From assembly GCA_020072785.1 (NCBI GenBank), contig JAIQGG010000002.1:62001-126000 (forward strand): a stretch of 64,000 bases of DNA. The letters run 5' to 3'. Positions within the stretch are counted from its first letter, which is position 1. Every line of letters begins with the position of its first letter. Below are positions 1,184-47,071 of the stretch, piece by piece. The notes beneath the pieces were generated by a model. That model saw only the letters and a program-made list of their open reading frames with translations. It did no database searches and was not told where the DNA came from. The position numbers were made by a program, and so were the translations under genes. This DNA comes from Terriglobia bacterium. Lineage in GTDB: Bacteria; Acidobacteriota; Terriglobia; Acidiferrales; UBA7541.

Positions 1184-1203
1184 GTTGTTCTCCTTTGTAT
1201 GCG

Positions 1204-1220
1204 TGACCGCGAAGCGGTCA
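1204..1220. repeat. Dispersed palindromic element, copy 1 (arsR-arsM gap)
   Basis: Exact core TGACCGCGAAGCGGTCA, a 7-base-pair stem with a GAA loop, flanked by GTATGCG on the left and AC on the right. It lies between arsR and arsM, 20 bases before the arsM start, so it is transcribed with the operon. Confidence 0.9.
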
Positions 1221-1236
1221 ACTTGCAAGAAAATTC

Positions 1237-1256
1237 CCGCCCTCTGAAGAGGGCGG
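1237..1256. other. Perfect hairpin in arsR-arsM spacer
   Basis: CCGCCCTC and GAGGGCGG are separated by TGAA, giving an 8-base-pair stem with a four-base loop. There is no T-run after it on the minus strand, so it is not an obvious terminator. Together with the palindrome at 1204-1220 it makes the arsR-arsM spacer highly structured, which could set the ratio of regulator to enzyme (inference). Confidence 0.55.
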
Positions 1257-1262
1257 CTACAG

Positions 1263-4785: not shown

Positions 4786-4827
4786 GCCGCGGCGGTCACT
4801 CTGCGTCATTCCCGACAGTGGTATGTG

Positions 4828-4898
4828 TGGCCGCGAAGCGGTCAAGAGTGTGCGTGACCGCGAAGCGGTCAAGAGTATGTGTGACCGCGAAGCGGTCA
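4828..4898. repeat. Three tandem palindromic elements, 27-base period (upstream of prs)
   Basis: Cores at 4828-4844 (first stem base pair changed, TGGCCGC), 4855-4871 and 4882-4898, each starting exactly 27 bases after the last. All three face the same way. Because 27 is a multiple of three, the array stays open in the prs reading frame. Confidence 0.92.
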
Positions 4899-4948
4899 AC
4901 CCAAGCCGTAATTCAGCCGCCACAAGCGGATACTGGAGCGAGTGCGCC

Positions 4949-7356: not shown

Positions 7357-7365
7357 CGCAAACGT

Positions 7366-7409
7366 TAACCGCTTAGCGGTCACACTTGCGGTTGACCGCT
7401 GGGCGGTCA
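7366..7409. repeat. Two tandem palindromic elements, 27-base period (pth-rpsF gap)
   Basis: Cores at 7366-7382 (TAACCGCTTAGCGGTCA, one stem mismatch) and 7393-7409 (TGACCGCTGGGCGGTCA), in the reverse orientation relative to the copies at 1204 and 4828. The spacing is again exactly 27 bases. The loops differ (TTA and TGG) while the stems are kept. Confidence 0.88.
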
Positions 7410-7467
7410 CACCAGCGAAGAACGAGTTTCCCGGGCCCCGCGCCCGGAGAAGGAAACAGAGGGGAAT

Positions 7468-7863: not shown

Positions 7864-7873
7864 GCTTCCGCGT

Positions 7874-7917
7874 TGACCGCTTCGCGGTCACGCAAACGGT
7901 GGACCGCTTTGGGGTCA
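7874..7917. repeat. Two tandem palindromic elements, 27-base period (rpsF-rpsR gap)
   Basis: Cores at 7874-7890 (TGACCGCTTCGCGGTCA, perfect) and 7901-7917 (GGACCGCTTTGGGGTCA, decayed), reverse orientation, spaced exactly 27 bases. They occupy most of the gap between rpsF and rpsR. Confidence 0.88.
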
Positions 7918-7974
7918 TCCAGGCGACGGAAAAATTTCCTGACGAGATTCGCGAGACGAGAAAGGTAGGACGGT

Positions 7975-8984: not shown

Positions 8985-9031
8985 GCGGGCGGCGTTTGCC
9001 GGACAGCTCGCAGAAATAACATTTGTATGAG

Positions 9032-9048
9032 TGACCGCGAAGCGGTCA
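9032..9048. repeat. Dispersed palindromic element (rplI-dnaB gap)
   Basis: Perfect core TGACCGCGAAGCGGTCA, forward orientation, flanked on the left by TTGTATGAG as at copy 1. It lies in the 304-base gap between rplI and dnaB, directly before a terminator-like hairpin. Confidence 0.9.
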
Positions 9049-9050
9049 GC

Positions 9051-22942: not shown

Positions 22943-22973
22943 TCTTGCACCCGCACGCCCTCAGGCTCATGCA

Positions 22974-23025
22974 CGACCGCGAAGCGGTCGATGTTTGGAT
23001 CCCCAGTGTGGCCGCCGCGCGGTCA
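22974..23025. repeat. Two palindromic elements, irregular spacing
   Basis: Cores at 22974-22990 (CGACCGCGAAGCGGTCG, compensatory change of the outer pair from T-A to C-G) and 23009-23025 (TGGCCGCCGCGCGGTCA). They are 35 rather than 27 bases apart. The compensated outer base pair at the first copy suggests that stem pairing matters. Confidence 0.8.
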
Positions 23026-39839: not shown

Positions 39840-40436
39840 TCACTTGCGGCCGCGATTTTTTCCACGGCGCGTGCTCTTCTGTTGTATGCGTGACCGCGAA
39901 GCGGTCAACGCGCCGCCGGCCGCCAAAGCCGGCAGGTTGCGCCCCAAGCCATTGGGCGCGGGCAGACCGTACCCCACCCATACTTGATTAGATGCAGTTC
40001 GGAAGCCAAAGTAATCCGGCTCCAGGCTGACGTGGCGCCGCGCCGGCTTGTCCAGAAGCACGGCCAGGCGCAACGAGCGGGGCCGGCTTTCGCCCAGGCG
40101 GCGCAGGAGAAATTCCTGGGTCACGCCGCTTTCGATCACCACATCCACCAGCAGGACGTCCCGGCCGCGGAGGTCGGGCCGCTTGCCGAAGAAAACTTCG
40201 CGCAGGGGGCGGTTATTGTGCCTGACGTCGCGCACGTCCGCGGAAACAAAGTGACAGGTCACCGGCCCGGGCAGGTGGCGGACGAGATCGGCGGCAAAAA
40301 TGAAGCCGCGGTCCATGGTGATGACCACGTCCAAGCGGCGGCCGCGGTAGTCCCTGTGAATGGCTTTGCCCAGGGCGGCCACCTGTTTGGCGATGCGTGG
40401 CGCGGAATAGCCCGCGCGCGAACGGCTGCTCAGCAT
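39840..40436 (-). CDS. hpt: Hypoxanthine phosphoribosyltransferase with a repeat-derived C-terminal tail
   Basis: Purine salvage enzyme converting hypoxanthine or guanine with PRPP to IMP or GMP. It has 198 residues with the start at 40436 (MLSSRSRAGYSAPRIAKQVAALG). The substrate region is VVITMDRGFIFAADLVRHL, the PRPP loop VLLVDVVIESGVTQEFLL, and the end of the normal fold is WVGYGLPAPNGLGRNLPALA near residue 170. About 25 further residues follow, starting [11 protein letters not shown]; these codons come from a palindromic element at 39891-39907. The gene overlaps the end of tilS by seven bases and precedes ftsH. An upstream start would be inside tilS and is not supported. Confidence 0.9.
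   Translation of the reverse strand: MLSSRSRAGYSAPRIAKQVAALGKAIHRDYRGRRLDVVITMDRGFIFAADLVRHLPGPVTCHFVSADVRDVRHNNRPLREVFFGKRPDLRGRDVLLVDVVIESGVTQEFLLRRLGESRPRSLRLAVLLDKPARRHVSLEPDYFGFRTASNQVWVGYGLPAPNGLGRNLPALAAGGALTASRSRIQQKSTRRGKNRGRK
39891..39907. repeat. Palindromic element inside the 3' end of hpt
   Basis: Perfect core TGACCGCGAAGCGGTCA with the common GTATGCG left flank. It supplies codons for the extra C-terminal residues of the hpt product (read on the minus strand as [11 protein letters not shown]). Confidence 0.9.
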
Positions 40437-41986
40437 GATTCCTCGGCGATTACGATCCCAACCTGGGTACGTGCATCCGGTGCGAATTCTGCGGCGACCG
40501 GAAAGCCGCGGACCCACGCGATCGCTCCGCCGCTCGTCAGGACCGGCCAGCCCTCGCGTGCCCACCGGCTGATGCGCTTTTCCAGGAACAGGCGCTTCAG
40601 TTTGTGCGGCTGCTGGTGGCCCGCGGGGCGAAAGGCATCCCCGGGCCGCCAGTTCCGCAAAAGGAGTGGTTCACGGAGCCGGTTGCGGTCCAACACCGCC
40701 GCTACCTCCCTAGTTTCTCCCCTCTGCGCAGGCCAGTCAATCACCGTGAGATGGAAGACGCGGTGCAGTTGCGGCACGGTCACGGTGGCGCCGCCCGCTC
40801 CGAGATGCACCGGATAGGCAAATTCCAGCGCCGCCGGGCCAGCAGCGGACGCCACGGAGGGCCCGCGGAGCACGATGGCGTCCAGATCGCGCCGCGCTTC
40901 CACGCCGCCCGGCAGCTGCAGTACGTTGCCGCTGGGGCCGTGTTCGGCCAGACGCAAGAGCGCTTCGAGGTGCTGCGCAGTGAGCTGGCCGGGGCGCTGC
41001 TTCACGCTCTCGACGATGCGCCGCAGCAGGCGCTTGCTCAGCGCCCGCGCCGTCGCTGCTCTTTCTTTCTCCGTGATCCCGGCGCCTTCTGCATGCGTGA
41101 CCGCGAGGCGGTCAACGGTGTCGAGTCCTTTTTCTTTCTTCCACGGCAGCAGCAGATCCGCGGTGCGGATGCGCACCGCATTCTCTTCGCGCTGGGCTAG
41201 CGCCGCCATGCGCTCCGCCGCCAGGGCTTCGAGGAAGGCCTCGTCCTCGCGGGCGCGCTCCGCCAGGGCGGTCAGGTGCGCGACGACGGCGGGCTGGAAT
41301 TTCCGCTCCAGCAGCGGCAGCAGCTTGCGGCGAATGCGCGCGCGCAGGCGCGTCAGGTCCAGATTGGTGACGTCCTCGCGCCAGCGCTGTTTGCGCGCCC
41401 GCAGATAGGCGCGCAGCTCCGCGCGGCGCAGCTCGAGCAGCGGGCGCACCACGTGGCCCACCACCGGATGGATGCCGCCGAGGCCGGCCAGTCCCGTGCC
41501 GCGCAGGATGTGCGCCAGGACGGTCTCCGCCTGGTCGTCGGCGGTGTGGGCCACGGCGACGCGCTCGGCGTGGCCCTCCTGCACCAGGCGCACGAAGAAT
41601 TCGTAGCGCAGGCGCCGCGCCGCGTCTTCGAGATTGCCGCGCCGCCGCCGGGCCTCCGCGGCCACGTCCGCGCGGTGCACGTGAAAGGGAAGCGCGCGGG
41701 CCGCGGCGAGGCGGGCCACGAACTTTTCGTCCGCGTCGGAAGCCTTGCCGCGCAGCTGGTGATTGAAGTGCGCGACGCTGAGCACGATGCCCAGCCGCTC
41801 GCGCAGCTCTTCGAGCAGGAGCAGGAGGGCCACGGAATCGGCGCCGCCGGAAACGGCCACGGCGACGCGGTCGCCGGGGCGCAGCATCTCCCGGCGCTGG
41901 AGCGCGTGCAGCACGCGGCGCACCAGGTCGTTGCGCCCGGGGCTTTCGGTGCGCGCGCGTTTCGGCGATGGCTTTTTCGGGGGCAT
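40430..41986 (-). CDS. tilS: tRNA(Ile)-lysidine synthase with an in-frame palindrome insertion
   Basis: Modifies the CAU anticodon of tRNA-Ile. The PP-loop ATP-binding motif is VAVAVSGGADSVALLL (SGGADS, residues 46-51). Other N-terminal-domain motifs are SVAHFNHQLRG and VAVAHTADDQAETVL. A TilS C-terminal domain follows, ending near GDAFRPAGHQQPHKLKRLFLE. The length is 518, longer than most. Part of the excess is a linker at residues about 285-305 where LDTVDRLAVTHAEG is read from a palindromic element at 41098-41114. hpt and ftsH follow in the conserved order, hpt overlapping the end of tilS. Confidence 0.93.
   Translation of the reverse strand: MPPKKPSPKRARTESPGRNDLVRRVLHALQRREMLRPGDRVAVAVSGGADSVALLLLLEELRERLGIVLSVAHFNHQLRGKASDADEKFVARLAAARALPFHVHRADVAAEARRRRGNLEDAARRLRYEFFVRLVQEGHAERVAVAHTADDQAETVLAHILRGTGLAGLGGIHPVVGHVVRPLLELRRAELRAYLRARKQRWREDVTNLDLTRLRARIRRKLLPLLERKFQPAVVAHLTALAERAREDEAFLEALAAERMAALAQREENAVRIRTADLLLPWKKEKGLDTVDRLAVTHAEGAGITEKERAATARALSKRLLRRIVESVKQRPGQLTAQHLEALLRLAEHGPSGNVLQLPGGVEARRDLDAIVLRGPSVASAAGPAALEFAYPVHLGAGGATVTVPQLHRVFHLTVIDWPAQRGETREVAAVLDRNRLREPLLLRNWRPGDAFRPAGHQQPHKLKRLFLEKRISRWAREGWPVLTSGGAIAWVRGFPVAAEFAPDARTQVGIVIAEESC
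41098..41114. repeat. Palindromic element inside tilS
   Basis: Core TGACCGCGAGGCGGTCA (loop GAG) with a GCATGCG flank. It lies inside the coding region of tilS, read in frame as VDRLAVTHA, with no stop or frameshift. Confidence 0.9.
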
Positions 41987-46964: not shown

Positions 46965-46974
46965 TGATTATATG

Positions 46975-46991
46975 TGACCGCGAAGCGGTCT
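46975..46991. repeat. Palindromic element upstream of the 16S region
   Basis: Core TGACCGCGAAGCGGTCT (last base changed) ten bases upstream of the small Tat-signal gene (minus strand). Confidence 0.8.
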
Positions 46992-46992
46992 A

Positions 46993-47071
46993 CCTCCGGG
47001 CTGGCTTTTTCCGGAGGGACATGCTAACATGTCCAAGTTGGCTATGCGTCTTGCGGAAAGCTGTAAGACGC
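46993..47071. other. Cluster of three hairpins upstream of the 16S promoter
   Basis: Three separate perfect stems of seven pairs: CCTCCGG with CCGGAGG (46993-46999 and 47011-47017), GGACATG with CATGTCC (47017-47034, loop CTAA), and GCGTCTT with AAGACGC (47046-47052 and 47065-47071). No gene is seen here. It belongs to the 392-base gap between the Tat-signal gene and the 16S gene. Confidence 0.5.

Follow-up and report, generated by a model that had tools for sequence, protein, structure and literature searches.

Very small, apparently mobile palindromes have been known for decades, and for several of their families we know of no enzyme that moves them. The small dispersed repeats of cyanobacteria are about 20-27 nt long, apparently mobile and sometimes tandem. 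REP sequences of the GTAG and CGTC super-families are short hairpins in hundreds of copies, mostly intergenic, sometimes genic, and without a transposase of their own (PMC3733652). CGTC REPs also have no known enzyme, intragenic REPs have been described, and the Rickettsia palindromic elements RPE-4 and RPE-6 are of CGTC nature (PMC3733652). RPEs insert in frame in unrelated genes and have a preferred frame (Ogata 2000/2002 as described in PMC10969869). The ends of IS200/IS605 elements and the substrates of TnpA_REP place a hairpin by a short motif, join without target duplication and have an end motif that resembles the target (PMC6006769). The 27-nt palindromic unit described here, from a soil acidobacterium, shares some features with each of these systems. 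We class it as a variant of the small mobile palindrome kind; it fits none of the named families tested.

The unit consists of eight semi-variable bases (consensus TGTATGTG), a TGACCGC stem strand, a GAA loop, a GCGGTCA stem strand and a final AC, as compiled from 134 units at 98 sites. These sites were sampled from the first listed places around exact cores and thus lean to young copies; genome counts rest on pattern searches. The stem of 7 bp closes a triloop of 3 nt, and the DNA hairpin of the unit folds at -7.5 kcal/mol (z -4.0). Loop and stem strand together contain GCGAAGC, a DNA mini-hairpin with exceptional stability (PMC4686876). Directly 5' of the first unit lies the motif TC[CA]T[TC], with C at -12 in 89-90% and T at -13 in 56-66% across the alignments of 134 units and 98 first units. 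AC follows the stem in 95% of last units, and the resulting 3' end, TCAAC, resembles the target motif. Single units make up 67 of the 98 sites; the arrays run head-to-tail with 2-4 units, neighbours are spaced by 27 nt in 33 of 36 cases, and some units are near-identical to those beside them. The same anatomy was found in the sister genome G007 (34 of 43 spacings at 27 nt; motif C 77%, T 57%). This genome also holds the longest array observed, with about seven head-to-tail units (G007:C106:1198-1384).

The window, the whole analysed stretch of 64,000 nucleotides, holds 25 matches to the core TGACCGCGAAGCGGTCA at up to three mismatches, compared with 0.31 expected in shuffles (both strands were counted, and the palindrome scores on each). 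Its genome (G000) has 120 exact cores, versus none for the reversed control. A search with TGACCGCNAAGCGGTCA at up to two mismatches returned 538 strand-wise matches (control 3), which we read as roughly 300 units because most units score on both strands. Exact cores occur in 11 of 89 genomes of the family, all from one genus, with 120 in the window's genome, 73 in G007, 38 in G005, five in each of two others and one or two in the rest. Among 84,980 species, two assemblies of gp2 Acidobacteriota, JAIQEV01 (isolate SRVP_26) and QHYP01 (AA85), account for nearly all matches to the 20-mer GTGACCGCGAAGCGGTCAAC; other Acidobacteria MAGs contribute a few, and three isolated ones lie beyond. G007 corresponds to SRVP_26 and shares about 93% DNA identity with the window over part of its length; G005 corresponds to AA85. 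The genomes are metagenome assemblies. The element has expanded in three related members of the gp2 Acidobacteriota and is all but missing elsewhere. No exact match to the 20-mer was found in IMG/VR as a sign of viral carriage.

Two copies in the window lie inside adjacent genes on the minus strand. The gene tilS (40430..41986) encodes a tRNA lysidine(34) synthetase of 518 aa (TIGR02432, 174.6 bits against a cut-off of 93.6; PF01171, PF11734). Its stop is overlapped by the start codon of hpt (39840..40436), which encodes a hypoxanthine phosphoribosyltransferase-like protein of 198 aa (PF00156 over cut-off; TIGR01203 at 91 bits, below the cut-off of 150). The core is exact at 39891-39907 in hpt and has one mismatch at 41098-41114 in tilS. 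Both units carry the GAA strand on the plus strand, antisense to the genes. The tilS unit (41090..41116, +) adjoins CCTTC at 41085..41089 (+), which corresponds to the motif compiled from 98 sites; the sister has CCCTC, read here as CCTC. The hpt unit (39883..39909, +) adjoins TCTGT at 39878..39882 (+; sister TCCGT). In alignments with G007, tilS shows a clean gap of exactly 27 nt, whereas in hpt the sister lacks the 27 nt and differs separately by 3 nt in a run of GCC. The preliminary description of two in-frame palindromic elements that break neither gene thus holds: both are clean insertions with empty sites in the sister, the reading frame is kept, and the sites tolerate the insert.

The tilS unit encodes VDRLAVTHA, which had been placed in a linker near residue 290 and occupies residues 291-299, after the PP-loop domain (41-220) and before the C-terminal domain (443-508). 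Residues 285-302 have pLDDT below 50 in an AlphaFold2 model, so the insert forms part of a low-confidence linker. In the basic tail at the C-terminus of Hpt, the unit encodes (A)LTASRSRI(Q). These residues had been described as following the normal end of the fold, but the insert splits an existing tail, and the native end RGKNRGRK comes after it, as in the sister. The insert is missing from each of the 27 other Hpt orthologues whose tail could be read; these tails are all basic, short and variable, and the unit thus lies within a pre-existing one. The nine TilS residues are likewise absent from 21 of 21 other TilS orthologues, where a variable linker occupies this region. Relatives of equal length with identical residues, which would have spoken against insertion, were sought and not found. 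Because the outgroups are without them, both inserts are gains in the window's lineage, and the added residues are probably neutral.

That two neighbouring genes carry inserts had been considered striking. Given 12-40 in-gene copies genome-wide, 0.04-0.5 in-gene pairs within 1.2 kb are expected, and several if all sites are counted. The pair is mildly unlikely, does not call for an explanation and is not strong evidence for anything special in the operon.

The other units in the window vary in number and in their presence in the sister. A unit at 1196..1222 (+) lies just upstream of a gene's ribosome-binding site and is matched by two units in G007; a canonical GTAG REP (GTAGCCGCCCTCTTCAGAGGGC) at 1239-1260 (-) adjoins a 27-nt unit. 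Three head-to-tail units (81 nt) at 4820..4900 (+) have no counterpart in G007, and the hairpin of the single unit at 9024..9050 (+) is also absent there. Common to both genomes are two diverged head-to-tail units at 7364..7417 (-) and two units, one of them diverged, at 7872..7925 (-). A diverged unit with two mismatches in its core lies at 22966..22992 (+), and a unit at 46967..46993 (+), which stands alone upstream of the 16S rRNA gene, has a diverged copy in the sister.

Across both genomes, 26 sites could be aligned, using the stretches fetched from G007. At about 10 of them the units occur only in the window's genome, including the array at 4820-4900, tilS, hpt, L063:3325, L090:1000, L101 and L116:1723. 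Four differ in unit number, with one unit versus two at 1196, L102 and L115 and two versus one in L116, and the remaining sites are shared or unclear. Units are thus gained or lost between the sister genomes in 27-nt steps. Where the flanks rejoin at the cleanest empty sites, no target duplication was seen. These empty sites point to movement of the element, as judged from sequence comparison.

Genic sites were called with a hexamer coding score built for this analysis, not a standard gene caller, followed by manual reading. The score placed 10 of the 98 sites in reading frames, and 10-12 were kept after manual reading, hpt and tilS among them. Manual reading removed three automatic calls: L083, which resembles a shadow frame; L091:687, a chance match in a triosephosphate-isomerase-like gene; and L085, probably upstream of the true start. 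Because 66-71% of target motifs are genic compared with these 10-12 of 98 sites, in-gene copies are strongly depleted (p about 3e-28), and we conclude that the element is mainly intergenic, with surviving in-frame copies. A coding start lies within 40 nt of 29 of the 98 sites on the target side and of 13 on the other. Targeting to Shine-Dalgarno sequences was considered and discarded: about 11 of 98 sites fall at 9-17 nt, a share similar to that of intergenic control motifs (52 of 590). RAGGA/RATGA is itself complementary to the target motif, and with the controls behaving alike at this distance we make no claim of special targeting.

Most of the in-gene copies that were kept lie antisense to their gene and read VDRFAVT. 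This frame accounts for 8 of 10 copies in the window's genome, versus 37% of open-frame motifs (p 0.008), and for 14 of 18 when G007 is added and one site common to both species is removed (37% expected, p 6e-4). The hpt copy and a two-unit asparaginase copy use the LTASRS frame. The excess of one frame, in a small sample with gene calls made by hand, suggests selection on the encoded peptide. An S15 peptidase (L080:1068-1094, L237) keeps its unit in frame at the same residue in both species. The expectation that arrays can grow without a frameshift, 27 being a multiple of three, is borne out by the 27-nt steps between sisters and by the asparaginase-2 family gene (L071:982-1035), which carries two units in frame. 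These two units lie just before residues resembling an autocleavage site.

Several other explanations were weighed. The likeness to Rickettsia elements raised in the preliminary description stands as far as in-frame inserts in genes are concerned, and these occur in unrelated genes and mostly in one frame, as in RPEs (PMC10969869). It does not extend to gene insertion as the typical outcome, and that the element is an RPE or a direct relative specialised for in-frame gene insertion is highly improbable. RPE-1 is a long palindrome that lies largely within genes and encodes a conserved in-frame peptide, and RPEs measure about 150 bp (PMC10969869), whereas this unit has 27 nt, 88-90% of its sites are intergenic, its sequence and host are different, the CGTC tag of RPE-4 and RPE-6 is absent, and exact cores are confined to Acidobacteriota apart from isolated matches. 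A protein- or RNA-level signal such as an operator, a terminator or a DNA uptake sequence, which would be immobile and owe its spread to mutation and selection, could account for the mostly intergenic location and for copies directly upstream of ribosome-binding sites. We regard this as quite unlikely, since the presence or absence of whole 27-nt units between intact flanks indicates insertion and not point mutation, and proximity to ribosome-binding sites equals that from the target motif alone. The exact 27-nt arrays with some near-identical neighbours are also what an ordinary minisatellite spread by slippage would produce. Slippage explains array length, not dispersal; most sites are single and dispersed, several such single units are absent from the sister, and a minisatellite alone is scarcely credible.

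A further alternative is a GTAG REP family moved by resident RAYT transposases. The element has the size class and hairpin form of GTAG REPs, RAYT-like Y1 genes are present in G000, G007 and G005, and real GTAG REPs occur in the same genomes. This identity is nevertheless unlikely. Neither GTAG nor GGAG stands at the 5' stem foot (-4 to -1) in any of the 134 units, and GTAG occurs anywhere in the eight bases in only three. Copies of a GTAG REP would be expected to flank a RAYT gene, but in G000 and G007 no copy of the element is closer than about 1.2 kb to a Y1 gene; the fetched flanks of most Y1 genes lack the element, and in the two loci that contain it the distance exceeds 1.2 kb. The three Y1 genes in G000 (L123, L132, L139) and the one in G007 instead carry unrelated terminal inverted repeats, so no Y1 transposase could be tied to the element in these genomes. 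The number of Y1 genes does not track copy number: genomes with 7-10 of them have no element, and G025 (85% completeness) has five exact cores yet no match to PF01797. GTAG REPs (GTAGCCGCCCTCTTCAGAGGGC at up to one mismatch) number 11 in G000, five in G007 and eight in G005. Because they adjoin Y1 genes in G005, the resident Y1 enzymes probably serve this family. A third hairpin, GCCGGGCTTTAGCCCGGC, flanks the Y1 transposase gene L132 (G000:C1:420614-420928), and L103 holds a near copy of it with a GTAG-like tag beside a 27-nt unit. A perfect inverted repeat of 32 nt, GGGTGCCCCATTCTTGCGCAGCAAGAGTGGGG, brackets the RAYT-like gene L139 (G000:C1:581615-581863).

Other named families differ from the element as well. 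The CGTC tag occurs in one of 134 units, and CGTC REPs have a stem of 8-9 bp and a loop of 4-5 nt compared with 7 bp and 3 nt here. REP dimers are mostly inverted, whereas this element is single or head-to-tail with a fixed 27-nt period, and it has a GAA triloop and a defined TC[CA]T[TC] target. MITEs have the terminal inverted repeats of a DDE element and duplicate their target, whereas the cleanest empty sites here show no target duplication. Like IS200/IS605 elements, the unit joins on the 3' side of a short motif and leaves no such duplication, but no tnpA or tnpB is linked to the element and no guide motif was demonstrated: mutual information between target and unit, as a measure of guide-sequence covariation, is weak and scattered, and PF07282 (TnpB) is absent from G000, G007 and G005. 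Orientation, compared with GC skew as a sign of lagging-strand bias, shows no consistent pattern, the skew being noisy in the sampled stretches. The small dispersed repeats of cyanobacteria (mentioned in PMC2884548, PMC3116915) are, by description, alike in size, apparent mobility and tandems.

We favour, with moderate confidence, a REP-like palindrome that is very small (exactly 27 nt), mobile but non-autonomous, and inserted by an enzyme acting in trans. Such an enzyme would recognise the hairpin in single-stranded DNA, cut the target after TC[CA]T[TC] and the unit after its terminal TCAAC, and join in the 27 nt, a reaction like that proposed for IS200/IS605 and REP enzymes. The likeness of unit end and target would let further units insert next to existing ones, after which slippage or recombination may alter array length. 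Most insertions into genes would be removed by selection, while in-frame insertions in tolerant loops could survive, chiefly in the orientation and frame that read VDRFAVT. More tentatively, and rather doubtfully, the element may represent a separate class of minimal transposable unit: a single 27-nt hairpin with a non-RAYT enzyme, copied near and far from existing units and brought into genes as a cassette of nine codons, with selection determining the frame that is retained.

The fixed length, the sharp ends, the target motif and the whole-unit differences between sisters allow the insertion reaction to be stated precisely and put to the test with oligonucleotides. Ordinary enzymes outside Rickettsia that carry nine-residue inserts in frame also form a set in which the tolerance of such inserts can be examined.
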